The notes: generated from the sequence alone by a model not told the origin. DNA of 64,000 nucleotides from Bacillota bacterium (GCA_012727955.1 JAAYGB010000059.1:1-64000), one strand, 5' to 3'. Counted from the first letter of the stretch, positions 27,041 to 36,183 are shown. Program-made: numbers and translations.

Positions 27041-28384
27041 CTACTCCCTTCCGGTAGTGACAGCCGAGTCCTTCTGGAGCCGCTGAGGAATCAGATCCAA
27101 CCGGATCAAATCCTCATAGGTCTCTCGTTTGACGATCAGGTCGGCTTGCCCGTTACTGACCAAGACCACCGCCGGGCGCGGGAGACGGTTGTAGTTTGAG
27201 GCCATGGAATAATTGTAAGCTCCGGTGGAAAAAACCGCCAAGATATCGCCGGGGTGTAGGTGGGGAAGTTCGATGTCGTGGATCAACATGTCCCCGGACT
27301 CACAGCACTTGCCGGCAATGGACACCGTCGCCTCCTTGGCTGCATGCATCCGATTGGCCACAACGGCTTCATATCTGGCCTGGTAGAGAGCCACCCGGGG
27401 GTTGTCGTTCATTCCCCCATCGACGGCCACATAGCGTCGGATTCCGGGAATGTCCTTAATGGAGCCCACTGTATATAGGGTTAGTCCTGCTTCCCCTACA
27501 ATAGAACGCCCCGGTTCCACAATCAATGTGGGCCTGGGGATACCCAAGTCACTACTAACTCGATCTACTTCCGTTGCAATCAGTTGAGCCAAAGCCTCAG
27601 GACCTACGGGAGTGTCACCTTGCTGATACCGAATTCCCAAACCTCCCCCCAGGTCCACCTCGGAAACTGGATAGTTAAATGTCTGCGCGATGTCCTTCAC
27701 TAGGCCCAGCATCCGCTCCACCGTGGGAACAAAGGAGCTGATATCAAAGATCTGGGAGCCAATGTGACAATGAATCCCTTTGAGGTTGAGGTGTGAAGAC
27801 TTTAGGGCCAGCTCAACGGCCTTGAGGGCCACATCGTGGGCAATGGCAAAACCGAACTTTGAGTCCAGCTGTCCCGTTTGAATATAGGAGTGAGTATGGG
27901 CTTCCACCCCTGGACTAATCCGAAGCAACACATCGACAACTTGATCTCGGTCCGCGGCCAACTGGGCTAACAACTGTAGTTCATAGAAGTTATCAACAAC
28001 GATGCGGCCCACACGATGATCTAGAGCCAAGGCAAGCTCATCGGTGGACTTGTTGTTGCCGTGAAAGAGAATTTTCTCCATGGGAAAATCTGCTTTAATC
28101 GCGGTATACAACTCTCCCCCGGACACCACATCGAGATAGAGTCCTTCCGACTCAATGATTTTACAGATCGCCAAGGTCAGCATCGCCTTGCCGGCATAGG
28201 CAACCTTGGTATCAGGGTAGTAATTGTTGAAACTGCTTCTATAACGCCGGGCCATCTGGCGCAACCGGGCTTCGTCAATCACATATAACGGAGTGCCAAA
28301 CTCAGCAGCTAGTTCTACAGTATCGCATCCGCCGACCACCAGATGACCATTAGTATCTACCTGTATCGTACCCTGCAACTGCAT
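27041..28384 (-). CDS. lysA: Diaminopimelate decarboxylase
   Basis: A 447-residue PLP enzyme of the alanine racemase fold that converts meso-diaminopimelate to L-lysine. The PLP lysine lies in AYAGKAML, and HCHIGSQI, EPGRSIVGEAG and the partner-site CCESGDML are all present. The longest frame starts at 28414. The ATG at 28384 is seven bases behind GAGGGG and is preferred over the ATG two codons earlier. It heads the run lysA-protease-HD-scpA. With lysC in the same window it covers the first and last lysine steps, but the two genes are far apart. Confidence 0.95.
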   Translation of the reverse strand: MQLQGTIQVDTNGHLVVGGCDTVELAAEFGTPLYVIDEARLRQMARRYRSSFNNYYPDTKVAYAGKAMLTLAICKIIESEGLYLDVVSGGELYTAIKADFPMEKILFHGNNKSTDELALALDHRVGRIVVDNFYELQLLAQLAADRDQVVDVLLRISPGVEAHTHSYIQTGQLDSKFGFAIAHDVALKAVELALKSSHLNLKGIHCHIGSQIFDISSFVPTVERMLGLVKDIAQTFNYPVSEVDLGGGLGIRYQQGDTPVGPEALAQLIATEVDRVSSDLGIPRPTLIVEPGRSIVGEAGLTLYTVGSIKDIPGIRRYVAVDGGMNDNPRVALYQARYEAVVANRMHAAKEATVSIAGKCCESGDMLIHDIELPHLHPGDILAVFSTGAYNYSMASNYNRLPRPAVVLVSNGQADLIVKRETYEDLIRLDLIPQRLQKDSAVTTGRE

Positions 28385-28463
28385 GGTCATTCCCCTCTCA
28401 CGAGCAAGCCTCAATGTATTCTATGATATCATAGGCACTTTGAGGCGGTCAACGAGGGGCAAC

Positions 28464-29450
28464 CTAGCGGGCAATGGGAAGTTCCTGCTTCGTTGATTCC
28501 CATTTGCCACATTTCGAACCCCAGGTTGCTACCGGGTCACCGTCCATCAACACCACCACAACTTCACAGGCATTGGCGCAATCCTGACATTCAAAGCTGC
28601 GGGATTCATAACGGTGTTCCACTGCATCAAAAACCCGAAATCTTGTCCTTGTCTGAGTCTTTCTCACCTCTTCCTTAGCCAGTAGGGCTGCTCCCAAAGC
28701 TCCCATCACATCGAAGTGTTCGGGGACTACCACTTCTTGACCTAGGGCTCGCTCAAAGGCATACCGCATCCCAATGTTGGCCGCAACCCCACCTTGAAAG
28801 GCGATTACTGGACGCAGGTCTTTGCCCTTACCAACACTATTGAGGTAATTGCGCACCATGGCATCGCACAGCCCGGCGATGATATCTTCAATACTGTGTC
28901 CTGTCTGCTGCTTATGAATCATGTCTGATTCCGCAAATACCGTGCACCGGCCGGCAATGCGGACAGGAGCCTTTGCCTTGAGCGCCAGGGCACCAAACTC
29001 AGAAATGGGAATTCCCAGCCTGGCAGCCTGTTGGTCGAGAAAGGAACCTGTTCCCGCGGCACATACGGTATTCATCGCAAAGTCCCGAATCACTCCATTT
29101 TCCAAGAGGATAATCTTCGAGTCCTGTCCCCCGATTTCAAGCACTGTCTTCACTCCGGGAACACTCATCGATGTGGCCACCGCGTGGGCAGTAATTTCGT
29201 TCTTGACGACATCGGCCCCCACAATAATCCCCGCCAGGCGGCGCCCACTACCCGTTGTCCCCACACCCTTGATTTGAGCATTGTCAAAGCTGCTCCCAAT
29301 GGCACTCAGTCCCTCTCGGATAGCCTTAATGGGCTGACCTTGGGTGCGGAGGTATTTTTTCGCCAGCAACTTGCCTGCTTCGTTTATCACAACCACATTG
29401 GTACTTACCGAACCCACATCCAATCCTAGATATAGCGCCTCTGACCTCAT
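28464..29450 (-). CDS. 2-hydroxyacyl-CoA dehydratase activase-type ATPase (BcrAD/BadFG/HgdC family)
   Basis: A 328-residue ASKHA-fold ATPase. GLDVGSVSTN (9-18) and GVGTTGSGR (62-70) form the nucleotide site. C130 (in VCAAGTGSFLDQ) and C169 (in CTVFAESDM) match the two cysteines that hold the [4Fe-4S] cluster between HgdC subunits. Such activases push an electron into a dehydratase or double-cubane protein by hydrolysing ATP. Unusually, about 60 extra C-terminal residues carry four more cysteines (CQDCANAC and one in GSKCGK), perhaps a second cluster. It overlaps the next gene upstream by four bases. No classical dehydratase alpha/beta pair is adjacent. Confidence 0.88.
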   Translation of the reverse strand: MRSEALYLGLDVGSVSTNVVVINEAGKLLAKKYLRTQGQPIKAIREGLSAIGSSFDNAQIKGVGTTGSGRRLAGIIVGADVVKNEITAHAVATSMSVPGVKTVLEIGGQDSKIILLENGVIRDFAMNTVCAAGTGSFLDQQAARLGIPISEFGALALKAKAPVRIAGRCTVFAESDMIHKQQTGHSIEDIIAGLCDAMVRNYLNSVGKGKDLRPVIAFQGGVAANIGMRYAFERALGQEVVVPEHFDVMGALGAALLAKEEVRKTQTRTRFRVFDAVEHRYESRSFECQDCANACEVVVVLMDGDPVATWGSKCGKWESTKQELPIAR

Positions 29451-30547
29451 CGCGCTGCCACCCCCGGTTCCCCTTGCTGTCGTCGAGACAGCAGATCTAA
29501 AAATGCTTCGATGCGAGTATGAAAACCGGCCTCTCCCGTCTGCTCGTCCAAAACCAAGGTCATAATGGGAAGACCGAGATCCTTGCTAACCTGGGCCAAG
29601 GCACTCTGGGCTACAATCTCAGGCATGCAGGTGAAGGGTAACAGATGCAGGATTCCATCAACGCCTTGGCGGGCAAACTCCAGGGCATGGGCTACAGACT
29701 CCAAGCCATGGCCCCCAACGGGACCGGACAAGTAACCCTTGGCGATCCGAGCCATCTGGTTCTGCTGCCTTGGCTGCAGGGGGGCTAGTAGTAAGTGGTG
29801 TTTGACCCAATCTCCGATCTGCACCTTTTTTTCAACCAATACCCGATGACGCCCCAGCAGCTTTTCCACATCCAAATTGACAAAGGGCTCCAGCAGGGTG
29901 TAAATTTCCCCCACCAAGGCAATCCTCAGTCGAGGTTTTCGTCCTGGCACCTTTAGGCCAGTTATCCTGTCTACCCCTAGGGCCACTGCCTCCTTTACCT
30001 TGGCCACTGTTTGGGCTTGATCGAGGCGCTGCAGAGCCCGGGAGAGGGCTGCGTCCACTTGCCGAGGATTCGCAGCCACTGGACGGGCCTGTCGGGCCGC
30101 AGTCTCTAGTACATCAAGGGCCTGAAACTTGTGCCAGCTAATTCGCAGCGCCCGAGCCACCGCCGACCAGGGTTGGTCTCGACGCACAAGCTGCACCTGG
30201 CGCCAAAACCTGTTCCAGTCCCCCTGTGGTGGTTCCAGGATAATCACGTCGAGGTCAATATTCAGATCCCGCAGGATTTCCCTTTGCACTTGGCCATAAA
30301 AACCGAAGCGACAGGGACCAACACCTCCGGCCATGATGGCGACTTCAGCCCCCAGTCGCTGTGCTTCGATGAAATTGCCGACGGGCACCTTGAGGGGCAG
30401 ACAAGCGGTCTCCGGAGCCAAGGCTACCCCGATGTTCAGAGTTTCCTCTGTGCAAGGGGGAGGAACTATCACCTCATATCCCAACTCCTGCAACAAAGCC
30501 TTGATGGGAATGTAGATATTACCCATGTGCGGAAAAGTGCATTTCAC
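29447..30547 (-). CDS. Dehydratase/CoA-activase-related protein (COG3581-like)
   Basis: A 366-residue protein resembling the large-protein C-terminal modules linked to BcrAD-type activases (DUF2229/COG3581-like). These are distant relatives of 2-hydroxyacyl-CoA dehydratase subunits. Cysteines that could bind an iron-sulfur cluster occur in PPPCTEE, ETACLPLK, GPCRFGFYG and TFTCMPEIV-like contexts. The N-terminus KCTFPHMGNIYIP is typical. GTG start six bases behind AAGG. It overlaps the preceding gene by 29 bases and the activase by four, so the three form one unit. The reaction is unknown; assignment is by motif and context. Confidence 0.8.
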   Translation of the reverse strand: MKCTFPHMGNIYIPIKALLQELGYEVIVPPPCTEETLNIGVALAPETACLPLKVPVGNFIEAQRLGAEVAIMAGGVGPCRFGFYGQVQREILRDLNIDLDVIILEPPQGDWNRFWRQVQLVRRDQPWSAVARALRISWHKFQALDVLETAARQARPVAANPRQVDAALSRALQRLDQAQTVAKVKEAVALGVDRITGLKVPGRKPRLRIALVGEIYTLLEPFVNLDVEKLLGRHRVLVEKKVQIGDWVKHHLLLAPLQPRQQNQMARIAKGYLSGPVGGHGLESVAHALEFARQGVDGILHLLPFTCMPEIVAQSALAQVSKDLGLPIMTLVLDEQTGEAGFHTRIEAFLDLLSRRQQGEPGVAAR

Positions 30548-31508
30548 CGGTATCCTTCCTCCATCGAATTAAGTCCACAAAGGCCTCCAACCGGGTGATC
30601 ATTCCCGCTTCCCCGGTATGTTCATCGAGGTTAACCGCTAGAAAGGGCATTTCCCTGCGCCGCATTTCCCGTTCTACTAGTTCCCCGATAATCGAGTCCG
30701 TACCACAACTAAAGGCTGCTATGTAGATCACCCCGTTCACGGGGACGGGCTTGGCATCTAAGAAAGCTCTAGCACTGCCAAAGGCAATTCGTCCGGCACG
30801 CCAATACATTTCCTTCGGCCAGCTTTTGGCCTTGACATCAATCAGATCTTGGGGCAACCGATCACCAATGATAGGATTGACGCCCATGGCCCTCAGCTTA
30901 GTCACTAGATCCATGCTGAGATACCCGTCCTCAATGAGATAACGGTGCCCGATGATTCCAATGGATAAAGACCCTTTCGCGAGACTATTGGCCTCCTGAT
31001 CCCTGGGCTCTAACCTATCCCGTCCCTCAAGGTAGGCAGCTAAAGCCCTTTGATATCCGGCGATGGCCTGCATCGGGTTTACTCCTAGGCTGCGAGCCAT
31101 CCTGGCTATCTCCAGAAGGGTGCCCCAACTGCCGGTGCGCAAATCGATTTTCGGGGCCAATATTCTTGGTCCTTTACCCTTGCCTGTGACTCCGTGTCGA
31201 GCCAAATCCGGCAACCCCATGAATTTCGGACAGATAAATTCCCGCCTTCTCACTCCAATGATGCGGGGAACGAAAATCCAATCCAAGTCGGACCTGCTGG
31301 CCAGATAAGCTGTATGACCGTAGAAGGTCTTGACCGGCAGACAGGTACCGTCGGTGGCCAACCTCACCCCGATATCGACGATGCTCCGATTGGTCGGCGG
31401 TGAAATCACCGCCTGGATATTTAGCTCTGCAAAGAACTGCATCCACAATGAGCCATAATCATAGAAGGCAAGGGCCCGGGGAATACCGACTCGAACCACT
31501 GATCTCAT
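30519..31508 (-). CDS. Dehydratase/CoA-activase-related protein (COG3580-like)
   Basis: A 329-residue paralogue-like partner of the next gene. The start VRVGIPRALAFYDYG is typical of DUF2229/COG3580-type proteins. Candidate cluster cysteines are in DGTCLPVKTFYGH, EFICPKFMG and AFSCGTDSIIG. The ATG at 31508, five bases behind AAAGG, is preferred over the GTG at 31514. The start lies only about 10 bp after the spoVAF stop, so this trio appears to be the tail of the spoVA operon. In many anaerobes the same modules are fused into one protein of about 1,400 residues; here they are separate genes. Confidence 0.8.
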   Translation of the reverse strand: MRSVVRVGIPRALAFYDYGSLWMQFFAELNIQAVISPPTNRSIVDIGVRLATDGTCLPVKTFYGHTAYLASRSDLDWIFVPRIIGVRRREFICPKFMGLPDLARHGVTGKGKGPRILAPKIDLRTGSWGTLLEIARMARSLGVNPMQAIAGYQRALAAYLEGRDRLEPRDQEANSLAKGSLSIGIIGHRYLIEDGYLSMDLVTKLRAMGVNPIIGDRLPQDLIDVKAKSWPKEMYWRAGRIAFGSARAFLDAKPVPVNGVIYIAAFSCGTDSIIGELVEREMRRREMPFLAVNLDEHTGEAGMITRLEAFVDLIRWRKDTGEMHFSAHG

Positions 31509-31519
31509 CGCCACCTTTC

Positions 31520-32971
31520 TCAGGCTAGGTCCTCATCCTGGGTCTTGAGCCGCTTAGGACGTCTGGTCACCTCAGGAATGGGATATCGAAGAATGAGACG
31601 CTTCAGTGCAACCCAATCAAAGGGAATTAAGGGCCACAAATAGGGCAGGTCCAAGGATCGGGTTGCCCCCATCACCGCCAAGGTGAACCCAATTCCTCCT
31701 AGAAAGCCATATAAGCCGAAAAACCCGGTGAGAATTAGCGTCAGGATTTTGAAGATCCGAAGGGCCAAGGAGAACTCATAGTTTGGCAGGGCAAAAAAGC
31801 CGATTGCACTGGTGGCTTGATACAATATGGCCTCAGGAACAAACAACCCCACCTGTACGGCGAAATCCCCCAACAAAATGGCCGCCACCAACCCTAGGGA
31901 ACTGGCCAGAGCCGAAGGCGTATGGATAAAGGCCATGCGGGTTAGATCGATGGCAAGCTCGAGAATCACCAGCTGTAGGAACAGCGGGATTTCACTTCCT
32001 GTCCGAGGGCCCAGCCACTGCAACCACTCTGGACGCAGTTGGGGGTTAGCGGCCAGCAAGAACCAGAGCGGAGTCATTAGAAAGGCCACCAAAATAGCAA
32101 GAAAACGGACCCACTTGAGATAGGTTCCCACCGTGGGATTCTGGAAATACTCCTCCGCGTGTTGAGTAAAGTGCCAGGCACTGGCGGGGAAGAGCATCGC
32201 CGTAGGCGTGGTATCGGTCAACAGGACAATGTGCCCCTCGAGAAGATGGGCCACCACCACGTCAGGCCGTTCGGTATAACGTACCGTGGGAAAGGGATTC
32301 AGTTTGCTTCTGACCAAGTATCCTTCTAAGGTCTTGGCCCCCATGGTCAGGGAGACAGTATCGATGCTTTGCAAAAGCTCTCGGGTGTGGTTGACCCATT
32401 CTAGGTTGGCAATGTCATTAACATAACCAATAAACACATCGGTCTTGGAGCGCCGCCCAACCCTAACGGCTTCAAAACGCAACCCTGGATCCCGCAGTCT
32501 CCGGCGAATCATGTTGACATTGAATAGGGCGGTCTCCACAAATCCATCATGGGAGCCCCGGGTGACCCGCTCTAAGTCCGGCTCGTCGATACTTCGATTT
32601 GGATACTGGCGAAGATCTATGGCGATGGCGCGGGTGCAGCCATCGAGCAACAAGACAGCTTGTCCTGCCAACACCTCATCGACGCAGCTTTCCAGATTGT
32701 CTATGGTGGCTACTTCAAAATAGGGAATATGGGATTGGATGAGCTTTTCGATAGGGTTGGGGAGGATATCCTCGCGGGTCAGCTTCATCAGGTGCTCCAA
32801 CACCCTTGAGGTGACCTGGCTTTGGATAAAACCATCCAAGTACAGCATAGCCGCGGGAGTTTGACCGATAAGAAACTCTCTCAGCATCACATCAAAGCTG
32901 CTGTCAATTCCCAGCTTTGGTCTGAGGAGCTCCAGATTTTCCTTGAGTGTCCGTTGAATTTCCATCGTCAT
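31520..32971 (-). CDS. spoVAF: Stage V sporulation protein AF (GerA-type germination protein family)
   Basis: A 483-residue protein. An N-terminal soluble domain (about 1-285) is followed by about five membrane helices in the C-terminal half, the same layout as GerAA-type spore germinant receptor A subunits and SpoVAF. Its position at the end of the spoVA genes identifies it as SpoVAF, which lies in the inner spore membrane and supports germination. The start overlaps the spoVAEa stop by four bases; an ATG two codons downstream is better spaced from GGGG. The activase-related trio follows within about 10 bp. Confidence 0.95.
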   Translation of the reverse strand: MTMEIQRTLKENLELLRPKLGIDSSFDVMLREFLIGQTPAAMLYLDGFIQSQVTSRVLEHLMKLTREDILPNPIEKLIQSHIPYFEVATIDNLESCVDEVLAGQAVLLLDGCTRAIAIDLRQYPNRSIDEPDLERVTRGSHDGFVETALFNVNMIRRRLRDPGLRFEAVRVGRRSKTDVFIGYVNDIANLEWVNHTRELLQSIDTVSLTMGAKTLEGYLVRSKLNPFPTVRYTERPDVVVAHLLEGHIVLLTDTTPTAMLFPASAWHFTQHAEEYFQNPTVGTYLKWVRFLAILVAFLMTPLWFLLAANPQLRPEWLQWLGPRTGSEIPLFLQLVILELAIDLTRMAFIHTPSALASSLGLVAAILLGDFAVQVGLFVPEAILYQATSAIGFFALPNYEFSLALRIFKILTLILTGFFGLYGFLGGIGFTLAVMGATRSLDLPYLWPLIPFDWVALKRLILRYPIPEVTRRPKRLKTQDEDLA

Positions 32972-33531
32972 TCCCCATTACGGCGCAGAATTTCCTGTAG
33001 GGCAACGGTAGTTGCCGGGGCTCCGGTGGCGGCAGCATCGGCAAATTGCATTTTCCCAGGGTCACCCAAACCCACAATGATAGGAATATCCAGTTTTCGC
33101 AAGACATCGACGGTATCTCCCTTGATCAGTGGGCTCTCAACGGGATGTCCCTCCTTGTTAACACCACCAGCGACGATGTCTCCATCCTTGGTGACAGAAA
33201 AATCCGGCTCTACACCCCGGACCCCCTCTGTATTCGAAGCCACCGCGATGGCTCCCAGTACCTCAATATCAGGATCAGATACAACTCGGGCCAAGAGTTG
33301 CTCTCCCTTTCCAAGACCTTCCTCACCTTGATCATCGAACATAACTACTACGGGATCCCCAGCCGCGGACTTGATCATGGCCAACAACTCCTTGGCATCG
33401 GGAGCGAAGTTATCAATGGCCGATGCACTGATGCACCGGCCACCGATGTTTTGTGCTGCCACTTCCATTGCTTCCTGCGCGGTTCTGTCTCCATCGGTTA
33501 CCAAAATCACTCTCACCTTGCTCCGATGCAT
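32968..33531 (-). CDS. spoVAEa: Stage V sporulation protein AE, soluble form (SpoVAEa)
   Basis: A 187-residue soluble protein whose N-terminus (VRVILVTDGDRTAQEA) and overall sequence match the soluble SpoVAEa subunit, which has no membrane span and supports calcium-dipicolinate movement or germination. The longest frame starts at 33630. The ATG at 33531, ten bases behind GGGGAGG, gives the normal family start. It overlaps spoVAF by four bases. Between it and spoVAEb sits an extra membrane gene. Confidence 0.93.
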   Translation of the reverse strand: MHRSKVRVILVTDGDRTAQEAMEVAAQNIGGRCISASAIDNFAPDAKELLAMIKSAAGDPVVVMFDDQGEEGLGKGEQLLARVVSDPDIEVLGAIAVASNTEGVRGVEPDFSVTKDGDIVAGGVNKEGHPVESPLIKGDTVDVLRKLDIPIIVGLGDPGKMQFADAAATGAPATTVALQEILRRNGE

Positions 33532-33583
33532 TAGCCTACAACCTCCCCTTCCTACCAAGACCTTCTCTTGAAGACTCGAATCC

Positions 33584-33916
33584 TCAGCGAATACTGGTGG
33601 GGACAAACAAGTCGATGATTCCAATGACAAAGGCAGCCAGCAAAGCTCCGAGAATGCTCACCGACATGTCCGGTACGACGTACTGGGCGGCCCAGATAAT
33701 GATGGCCGAAACCAGAAATCCAACTATCCCCCGGCTATACGGGGAAATATTCTTGCCCATAGTCGCCTCAACGACCCATCCAACCGCGGCAATAACTGCG
33801 GCGGCCAGAAGGGCGTTCCAGAATCCCAAGGGCTCAAAGCCCGGCAAGATGGCTCCTACGAACATTAATACAAGTGCAGACACAACGAGTCTGACTAGCG
33901 CTCCAACCCATTCCAT
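33584..33916 (-). CDS. YvlD-like small membrane protein (phage-holin-4 superfamily)
   Basis: A 110-residue, four-span membrane protein of the Phage_holin_4_2/YvlD type, recognised by its size, span pattern and the central GRIVGF-like turn (YSRGIVGFLVS). The holin name is only a family label; chromosomal members are not known to lyse cells. ATG start behind GGGAGG. It lies in the same direction inside the spoVA cluster, between spoVAEb and spoVAEa, so it may be made in the forespore. Its role is unknown. Confidence 0.82.
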   Translation of the reverse strand: MEWVGALVRLVVSALVLMFVGAILPGFEPLGFWNALLAAAVIAAVGWVVEATMGKNISPYSRGIVGFLVSAIIIWAAQYVVPDMSVSILGALLAAFVIGIIDLFVPTSIR

Positions 33917-33994: not shown

Positions 33995-34345
33995 CTATCC
34001 CTTAGGTTTGAAAATCACCGCCGCGGCGAATCCAAAAAGCATCGTGGCCGCAATGGCCGCCCCGGCAAACTCGAAGACACCGGAAAGCAGTCCATACCAT
34101 CCATCTCGTTCTAGGTGGGTCAGTATTCCCTTAGTCAACACAAAGCCAAAGTTAGATACCGGGGTAGTAGCTCCAGCCCCGGCGATGCGAACCAAATTGT
34201 CATAGATGCCTAAGCCGGTCAGCACCGAACCCGCCACCACGAATAACACCATGATATGGGCCATTGTTAACTTCGTAGTGTCAAAGAGTACCTGGCCCAA
34301 GGCACAGATTGCTCCGCCGACGAGAAAAGCCATCAGATAGTCCAC
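33995..34345 (-). CDS. spoVAEb: Stage V sporulation protein AE, membrane form (SpoVAEb)
   Basis: A 116-residue membrane protein with the SpoVAC/AEb pattern: FLVGGAICALGQ in the first helix, GAGATTPVSNFGF in the middle, and about four spans. With SpoVAC it is thought to form part of the calcium-dipicolinate channel in the inner spore membrane. The frame can open at a TTG (34354) that abuts the SD. The GTG at 34345, nine bases behind AGGAGG, gives MDYLMAFLVGG, the usual start. It follows spoVAD by six bases. Confidence 0.94.
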   Translation of the reverse strand: MDYLMAFLVGGAICALGQVLFDTTKLTMAHIMVLFVVAGSVLTGLGIYDNLVRIAGAGATTPVSNFGFVLTKGILTHLERDGWYGLLSGVFEFAGAAIAATMLFGFAAAVIFKPKG

Positions 34346-34350
34346 TTCCT

Positions 34351-35373
34351 TCAACCTCCTATAACCTCGACCCCAATGGCATGGGCAATTGCCGGAATGC
34401 TTTCACTTTGCTTAACTCGAACGGGGCTGTGGAGGGCACCGGTGGCCACCAAGAGGACTTTTTTCCACCGGCCTTGACGAAACTGCTTAACGATGTAGGA
34501 ATTGAACACCGCGGCAGCACATCCCAAGCCACTACCGCCGGAATGCACGTCCTGCCGCTCCCGATCGTAGATCATCACCCCACAATCATCGAGCCCTCTA
34601 CCGATGGAGATTCCACGGCGTGTCAGCAATTCCCGAAGCACCGTCAAGCCAACGTGGCCTAAATCGCCGGTTAGGATTAGGTCGTAGTAATCTGCGGTTA
34701 GGTCAAAGTCCCGGAGGTGGGCTTGGATGGTATCGGCCGCCGCCGGTGCCATGGCTGAACCCATATTGTACGCATCCCTAACCCCATAGTCCACCACCCG
34801 GCCGATGGTAGCCCTCACCACCCGCAGGGAGTCCCGGGCAGGAAATTCCAGAAAGGCAGCCCCAGCCCCGGTAACGGTCCACTGGGCCCAAAGCGGGCGC
34901 TGAACACCTAACTCGGTGGGAAACCGATACTGCCGCTCAGCTGCGTCGTGGTGACTGGAAACGGCAACAACGGCGTTCTTGGCAAAACCGCCCGTCAGTG
35001 CCATACCAGCCACTATTACCCCTTCGACAAATCCAGCGCAAGCCGAGTAGACGCCTAGGTGATTAATTGGGATTTCCCGTACCGCATAGTTCGATGCCGT
35101 TAGCTGGTCAAGCAGGTCCGAGGTCACCAGCAGGTCAACATCCTCCAGTGGGACTAGAGCATTATTTATCACCGTCTGAAAAGCCTCTTTGAGCATCTTG
35201 CTCTCTGTGCCTTCCCAACAGTTCTCGCCGTATCTGGTGTCGGGCAAGACGTGATCAAAGTACTGTCCCAATGGACCGGCCGCTTCCATCGGACCAACCA
35301 CGGTGACTGTAGCTTTGATTCCCACTCCCTCACCGAAACTAATGCTCTGCTTGCCCACTTTCCCCTGTTGCAC
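34351..35373 (-). CDS. spoVAD: Stage V sporulation protein AD
   Basis: A 340-residue protein with the thiolase-like fold of SpoVAD, which binds dipicolinic acid on the outer face of the inner spore membrane and is needed for its uptake into the forespore. Family segments seen are SACAGFVEGVI (thiolase-like cysteine region), DLGHVGL and SGLGCAAAVFNSYI. GTG start with AGGTGA SD. It lies between spoVAC and spoVAEb, the minimal AC-AD-AE set found in clostridia. Confidence 0.96.
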   Translation of the reverse strand: MQQGKVGKQSISFGEGVGIKATVTVVGPMEAAGPLGQYFDHVLPDTRYGENCWEGTESKMLKEAFQTVINNALVPLEDVDLLVTSDLLDQLTASNYAVREIPINHLGVYSACAGFVEGVIVAGMALTGGFAKNAVVAVSSHHDAAERQYRFPTELGVQRPLWAQWTVTGAGAAFLEFPARDSLRVVRATIGRVVDYGVRDAYNMGSAMAPAAADTIQAHLRDFDLTADYYDLILTGDLGHVGLTVLRELLTRRGISIGRGLDDCGVMIYDRERQDVHSGGSGLGCAAAVFNSYIVKQFRQGRWKKVLLVATGALHSPVRVKQSESIPAIAHAIGVEVIGG

Positions 35374-35397: not shown

Positions 35398-35877
35398 CTA
35401 GAAACCGAACATGTGTTTGATTCCGGCGGAGATAACTGCAGAGAGCACTCCATAGACCAACACCGGCCCAGAAATAGTAAAGAGCTGGGCGGACATGCCC
35501 AACACGTACCCTTCCCGGGAAAACTCCATTGCTGGAGCTACCACCGTGTTGGCAAATCCCGTGATGGGAACTGCAGAACCAGCTCCCCCAAATCTAGCCA
35601 ACTGATCGTACACCCCAAGCCCCGTCAGGAGTGCACCGATGAAAATTAGAATTACGGCAGTGCGTCCTCCCGCCTGGGTCTGATTGAGCCCGAGAGACAA
35701 CATGAAGTTCATGATTGCCTGAGCGCCCATACAAATGGCACCACCGACGAGATAGGCTCGCAGTAGGTTCTGCAGCAAGTTGGGCTTTGGCCGCATTTCC
35801 GTGACGACATAATCAAAGTCCATTTGATTCTGGACCCTGACGGGATCGGAAGAAACACTCTGGGCTAGACGAGACAT
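35398..35877 (-). CDS. spoVAC: Stage V sporulation protein AC
   Basis: A 159-residue membrane protein with the SpoVAC signature (AYLVGGAICMGAQ, GAGSAVPITGFANTVV and about four spans). In Bacillus it is a mechanosensitive component of the calcium-dipicolinate channel. The longest frame starts at 35898. The ATG at 35877, nine bases behind GGAGG and giving MSRLAQSV, is the likely start. It is the first spoVA gene here; spoVAA and spoVAB are absent, as in many clostridia. Confidence 0.95.
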   Translation of the reverse strand: MSRLAQSVSSDPVRVQNQMDFDYVVTEMRPKPNLLQNLLRAYLVGGAICMGAQAIMNFMLSLGLNQTQAGGRTAVILIFIGALLTGLGVYDQLARFGGAGSAVPITGFANTVVAPAMEFSREGYVLGMSAQLFTISGPVLVYGVLSAVISAGIKHMFGF

Positions 35878-35924
35878 CGGCTTTTTCCTCCAGTTCACTG
35901 AATTTACTGGTGCACCGTGACCAT

Positions 35925-35967: not shown

Positions 35968-36183
35968 TTAATCATCGGTACCATCGACAAGAAAGGCGAT
36001 TTCGATGTCCGCTTTGTATTCCACGATCTCGCCGGCATCATTGACATTTCCCGTCATATTGAGTACGTGGACACCGGTAATGTTGCGAATCGTTCGTGAA
36101 GCAGTCTTGACGGCACATCTGACTGCGTCTTCCCAACCCACCTTCGATTCACCAACCAGCTCCACTATCTTGGTGACTGCCAA
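35968..36183 (-). CDS. Dodecin family protein
   Basis: A 71-residue protein matching dodecin, a small dodecameric flavin-binding or flavin-storage protein. The conserved KIVELVGESKVGWEDAV start and the VLNMTGNVNDAGEIVEYKADIEIAF strands (described in parts) are typical, with the flavin-stacking tryptophan in GWEDA. TTG start seven bases behind a GGGGGG SD. It lies just upstream of spoVAC in the same direction, separated by a strong hairpin, so expression with the spoVA genes is possible but not certain. Confidence 0.92.
   Translation of the reverse strand: MAVTKIVELVGESKVGWEDAVRCAVKTASRTIRNITGVHVLNMTGNVNDAGEIVEYKADIEIAFLVDGTDD

Follow-up and report, generated by a model that had tools for sequence, protein, structure and literature searches.

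The closest described relatives of the genes analyzed here are the 2-hydroxyacyl-CoA dehydratase HadBC with its activator HadI (HgdAB/HgdC), the double-cubane cluster protein (DCCP) with its partner DCCP-R, and the class I benzoyl-CoA reductases (BCRs) BzdNOPQ and MbdONPQ. In HadBC the catalytic [4Fe-4S] cluster is ligated by three cysteines. BzdO likewise carries a [4Fe-4S]-OH2 cluster, with a water ligand, on three cysteines (Cys95, Cys128 and Cys380), while the [8Fe-9S] cluster of BzdN is held by six, and DCCP has the same cluster type as BzdN (PMC11971306). Here we describe three genes coding for COG3580, COG3581 and COG1924 proteins (the trio) that are located directly behind the sporulation gene spoVAF in a stretch of 64,000 nucleotides, called the window throughout, from a Bacillota bacterium (GCA_012727955.1, JAAYGB010000059.1:1-64000).

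The trio has in common with HadBC/HadI an HgdC/HadI-type ATPase with two bridging-cluster cysteines and a predicted heterodimer of HGD-D fold, whose subunits would also use three-cysteine ligation; it differs by the very low identity (11-14% in the Foldseek alignments), by the four-cysteine C-terminus of the activase and by its setting in a spoVA operon. The subunits share their predicted fold with DCCP, which is reduced in an ATP-dependent way by a COG1924 partner, as predicted for the trio, but DCCP is a homodimer with the [8Fe-9S] cluster on six cysteines, whereas each trio subunit has three invariant ones. The class I BCRs resemble the trio in having a heterodimeric catalytic part plus an ATPase, and in the three-cysteine pattern of BzdO, and the closest profile to the trio activase is MbdQ (E=7e-51). 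However, their activase part has two subunits and one other subunit carries the [8Fe-9S] cluster, whereas the trio has a single activase gene and lacks a six-cysteine subunit. Finally, anaerobes contain fused DUF2229 proteins (~1000-1450 aa) that share this domain, those of ~1440 aa matching the COG1924 profile twice per chain; these are uncharacterised single polypeptides that showed no spoVA linkage here. As for the operon itself, that of B. subtilis, which runs from spoVAA to spoVAF and then lysA, has the order spoVAC-AF and lysA in common with the window. In a Bacillus-like family of our survey (f79, loci L040, L041 and L043) there is no trio between spoVAF and lysA.

Most of the anaerobic spore-formers examined include the trio in their spoVA operon, and the Bacillus-type aerobes lack it. 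Judging from the order and conservation of the genes, the fold predictions, the invariant cysteines, the co-occurrence with SpoVAD and the absence in aerobic spore-formers, all computed here, the trio is probably a complete enzyme for ATP-driven electron transfer at low potential that acts in the forespore or spore core of anaerobes. It would be an ancestral member of the operon for dipicolinic acid (DPA) transport that was lost in aerobic spore-formers.

Gene arrangement and conservation of the linkage

All three genes are on the minus strand. The first codes for the COG3580/DUF2229 protein (30519..31514, Pfam DUF2229 E=1.7e-41), the second for the COG3581 protein (29447..30547, Pfam DUF2229 and a weak HGD-D match), both predicted to be HGD-D-type [4Fe-4S] subunits, and the third for an acyl-CoA dehydratase-type activase of COG1924, an ASKHA ATPase (28464..29450, TIGR00241 E=1.3e-53). 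Directly upstream is spoVAF (GerA family, 31520..32971, PF03323 E=2e-143), and its stop codon is separated from the start of the COG3580 gene by 5 bp (GTG at 31514) or 11 bp (ATG at 31508). Within the trio the overlaps are 29 bp (COG3580/COG3581) and 4 bp (COG3581/COG1924, ATGA), so that the short gap and the mutually overlapping genes described in the initial annotation were borne out. Its label of all three genes as activases holds for COG1924 only. A scan of the gap between spoVAF and the trio found neither the promoter nor the terminator that had been named beforehand as evidence against an operon.

The initial annotation had also asked how often the three families lie behind spoVAF in other genomes, and regarded relatives whose trio is never near spoVA genes as evidence against the link. 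We drew 299 genomes from the phylum, 79 of them with SpoVAEa, plus three more from the class, and mapped up to 20 kb around each SpoVAEa locus, using profiles made from the proteins of the window (81 loci in 40 families; one genome, whose SpoVAEa gene is split, was left out). The COG3580-COG3581 pair was found on the same strand, fewer than 400 bp after spoVAF or spoVAEa, at 58 of the 81 loci and in 30 of the 40 families, a recurrence that excludes chance. At five of the other loci the pair is 0.7-7 kb away, and 18 have no pair, some of these ending at contig ends. Furthermore, an independent search of named genomes with COG3581 only gave 80 loci. Of these, 61 immediately follow spoVA genes, two are separated from them by a few kb, seven have no sequence upstream and ten are unlinked. 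Among the named cases are Desulfofundulus thermosubterraneus, Pelotomaculum propionicicum, Heliobacterium mobile, Carboxydocella thermautotrophica, Carboxydothermus islandicus and Orenia metallireducens. The adjacency is thus confirmed and is much broader than the window, the opposite, decisively, of a trio never found near spoVA, and the operon-like link recurs across relatives.

Among the matches listed, COG3581 is linked to SpoVAD in at least 71 of the 102 genomes with both best positions, a count that includes at least 50 of the 62 genomes without SpoVAEa. The four relatives from the same order and class as the window all keep spoVAF followed by the trio, with lysA next in three. The gene order is variable, yet the linkage persists: in families f24 and f103 (five loci) the order is spoVAEa-trio-spoVAF, and at 14 of the 61 named loci behind spoVA genes, where spoVAEa and spoVAF are absent, the trio is directly behind spoVAEb. 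The wider block around the surveyed loci, in which names were assigned to unassigned open reading frames (ORFs) by reading the sequences, has dacF, spoIIAA, spoIIAB and sigF upstream and a TrpB-like gene, trpS, scpA and scpB downstream. This TrpB-like gene, also named from its sequence, is located between activase and lysA in many loci of the Desulfotomaculum/Pelotomaculum type (e.g. L129:12154-13533), with comparable places in 43 loci. At another four loci (L190, L191, L195 and L198) the pair is upstream of lysA or M50-scpAB and no spoVA genes were recognised in the ~9 kb upstream, as if spoVA had moved and the pair had stayed.

Distribution and the case for a spore role

In the sampled genomes, counts read by hand from the tables gave a strong COG3581 match (E below 1e-60) in 206 of 256 genomes with SpoVAD and in 7 of 43 without it (Fisher 4e-16), and within the SpoVAD-positive genomes in none of the 16 with a full-length, high-scoring COX1 (E below 1e-140, taken here to mean an aa3-type oxidase) and in 206 of the 240 others (Fisher 5e-13); neither test corrects for phylogeny, and paralogues are part of the COG3581 count. 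In a tree of 102 COG3581 proteins the non-spoVA paralogues, together with four of the seven trios from SpoVAD-negative genomes, formed one separate clade (100/100), and the window protein grouped with spoVA-linked relatives of its own order and class (96/86). Outside the paralogue clade, the unlinked proteins were for the most part displaced copies that branch within groups of linked relatives. The neighbours of the paralogue trios were mixed and had no common function (M20 peptidase, Dus, fumarase-like lyase, metallo-beta-lactamase, HpcH aldolase, Ku). The window's genome itself has a COX1-family match (G000:C36:120833-122080, E=2e-47, 584 aa), weaker than the aa3-type oxidases, which may point to some oxygen tolerance or to NO reduction.

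The limits of the Fisher tests are one of several points that weigh against a spore enzyme. A strong COG3581 match is also missing from about 34 SpoVAD-positive genomes that have no aa3-type oxidase, so the trio is not essential for sporulation, and the family exists outside sporulation as well, in the paralogue clade and in SpoVAD-negative genomes. In families f42 and f74 the trio is 7-40 kb from spoVA, and cotranscription is therefore not universal. A scan for the sigma-G consensus gave nothing above background upstream of spoVAC and no convincing promoter upstream of spoVAC or dodecin, with a best score of 8/11. Although spoVA of C. difficile is sigma-G dependent, the operon there consists of spoVAC-D-E only (CD0773-CD0775; PMC3789822).

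The trio might instead be a vegetative housekeeping redox system that merely lies within a conserved block (sigF-spoVA-lysA-scpAB), with transcription running through from neighbouring genes or into them and no role in the spore. The non-sporulation genes lysA, scpA, scpB and trpS do share the block in many loci, trio paralogues occur without sporulation genes, and a sigma-70-like site (28452-28423, 10 of 12 positions matching) was found between trio and lysA, in a scan whose total of five sites was below the mean of 9.1 in shuffled sequences. However, the site comes after the trio and before lysA, and could, though it is only suggestive, be the vegetative promoter of lysA itself, splitting this gene from the spoVA-trio unit. 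The trio also keeps to the spoVA side with short gaps, even entering between spoVAEa and spoVAF, follows spoVAEb directly when spoVAEa and spoVAF are lost, and co-occurs with SpoVAD. Weighing both sides, we regard a housekeeping system as unlikely. The forespore or spore role suggested in the initial annotation is supported as likely by the operon-like link to spoVA, and we infer forespore expression of the trio from its operon position.

Predicted structure and iron-sulfur ligands

By sequence, COG3580 and COG3581 are both under the Pfam HGD-D cut-off. Their AlphaFold 2 models (mean predicted local distance difference test, pLDDT, 90.6 and 90.1) matched chains of HadBC, DCCP, BzdNO and MbdON in Foldseek with E from 1e-9 to 1e-5. 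The best matches for COG3580 were HadC (3o3n_B, E=1.6e-8) and DCCP (7yyl, E=2.6e-8), and its first 16 were all HAD, DCCP or BCR chains, as were all 15 matches of COG3581 below 1e-3, with 7yyl as the best (E=9e-10). Each protein has exactly three invariant cysteines, C58, C95 and C270 in COG3580 (61/61) and C49, C79 and C307 in COG3581 (62/62), and their spacing resembles that of Cys95/128/380 in BzdO, making them predicted cluster ligands. With three such cysteines each and the precedent of BzdO, the two proteins appear to form a heterodimer, each subunit having a single three-cysteine site. Membership of DCCP was rejected on the same count, three invariant cysteines per subunit and not six. 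No other HGD-D protein was found in the window's genome, and the statement in the initial annotation that the activase has no adjacent iron-sulfur partner was wrong: COG3580 and COG3581 are the partner.

The activase matches the profiles of MbdQ, HgdC and HadI over residues 1-266 only. The pair C130/C169, at the site of the bridging cluster in this activator family, is invariant (50/50), and so are C288, C291, C295 and C314 (50/50), in a C-terminal stretch that extends beyond every solved activator. These are the four extra cysteines noticed initially; they are real and invariant, but they mark the whole trio family, including the non-spoVA paralogue activases, and we rejected them as a spore-specific adaptation. 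The trio member is the only COG1924 activase in the window's genome; a further PF01869 gene was rejected as a candidate, being a GlcNAc-kinase-like gene beside murQ.

Ten genomes lacked the activase in an otherwise complete neighbourhood, and a full-length one was found elsewhere in all ten, within a second trio in four, ruling out loss of the activase in these lineages. The relocated activases have a second DUF2229 pair as neighbour in four genomes, and otherwise an aminotransferase, PRPP synthetase or ABC ATPase. In four genomes a single full-length, standalone COG1924 apparently serves two DUF2229 pairs, one at spoVA (G118, G012, G265 and G145) and one elsewhere (L248, L252, L253 and L254).

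An activase that can be displaced in this way, and the fact that activases can serve proteins encoded elsewhere, would fit a locus made of two linked pieces, with COG1924 activating another enzyme, such as a distant 2-hydroxyacyl-CoA dehydratase, and the DUF2229 pair having an unrelated function. We consider this very improbable: both DUF2229 proteins have the HAD/DCCP fold with three invariant cysteines, and the window's genome offers the activase no other HGD-D protein. Since the activase was always present elsewhere when not linked, and the window's genome has neither another HGD-D protein nor another activase, the three proteins travel together as one functional unit. The appearance of NifEN far down the COG3580 Foldseek list (E ~2e-3) would fit a DUF2229 pair that serves, like NifEN, as a scaffold or in cluster assembly and is not a reductase. 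This is also very improbable: HAD, DCCP and BCR chains are better by orders of magnitude, and the presence of an ATP-driven activase of the HgdC type speaks for electron transfer.

Proposed mechanism

ATP-driven electron transfer, already proposed in the initial annotation, is supported by homology, and we infer the cluster content and the coupling to ATP from what is known of the family. COG1924 would be a homodimeric ATPase whose subunits are bridged by a [4Fe-4S] cluster, and its C-terminal four-cysteine region probably holds a second cluster through which electrons would enter, donated by reduced ferredoxin or flavodoxin. ATP binding and hydrolysis would then push electrons at very low potential into the clusters of COG3580 and COG3581, a putative [4Fe-4S] cluster on three cysteines in each subunit, and the heterodimer would carry out a reductive or radical reaction on a substrate in the forespore or spore core. 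DPA is a candidate substrate because it is an aromatic acid and the BCR relatives reduce aromatic rings. The reductase might act on the ring of DPA or on a reduced precursor in a Birch-like reaction, tying DPA transport by spoVA to dihydrodipicolinate/lysine metabolism (lysA) in anaerobes, but we regard this as a long shot, and the neighbourhood of lysA is no evidence for it, since the Bacillus-like family, which has no trio, likewise has lysA behind spoVA.

Neighbouring genes in the window

The order on the minus strand is dodecin, spoVAC, spoVAD, spoVAEb, holin-like gene, spoVAEa, spoVAF, COG3580, COG3581, COG1924 and lysA. Upstream of spoVAF are spoVAEa (32968..33630, PF14097 E=8e-66), a gene for a holin-like membrane protein with four transmembrane segments inside the spoVA cluster (33584..33916, PF04020 E=9e-17), spoVAEb (33995..34354, TIGR02839 above cut-off), spoVAD (34351..35373, TIGR02845 above cut-off) and spoVAC (35398..35898, TIGR02838 E=6e-47), while lysA (27041..28414, TIGR01048 E=1e-152) is the next gene downstream of the trio. 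The holin-like gene is on the same strand as its neighbours spoVAEb and spoVAEa in the window and on the opposite strand in four relatives (L064, L067, L085 and L102). Directly upstream of spoVAC is a gene for the flavin-binding protein dodecin (35968..36183, NF043052 E=1.6e-12), followed by a perfect, GC-rich hairpin of 10 bp without a T-run, and a dodecin-like ORF was found at a comparable position in 26 surveyed loci. Further upstream, a terminator-like hairpin (36280-36252) lies at the end of a dipeptidase gene. The genome encodes sigG on the same contig.

Significance

A search of the open full texts in PubMed Central, with subscription papers outside its reach, found no paper tying the trio to sporulation or to a spore role, and the texts of Galperin 2012, the C. 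difficile sigma regulons, the C. perfringens SM101 transcriptome and C. sporogenes spoVA2 do not mention an activase. The kind of enzyme is known and the trio subfamily uncharacterised; the link to spoVA across anaerobes appears to be new. Most of what is known about sporulation comes from Bacillus, which lacks this module. If a spore-core enzyme is indeed encoded here, the spores of most surveyed anaerobic lineages would hold a low-potential enzyme that is driven by ATP, sensitive to oxygen and encoded together with the DPA transporter, and that is beyond the reach of any Bacillus study. For the uncharacterised DUF2229 proteins this would supply a mechanism based on structure as well as a physiological context, and the redox chemistry of the anaerobic forespore or germinating spore would become testable.

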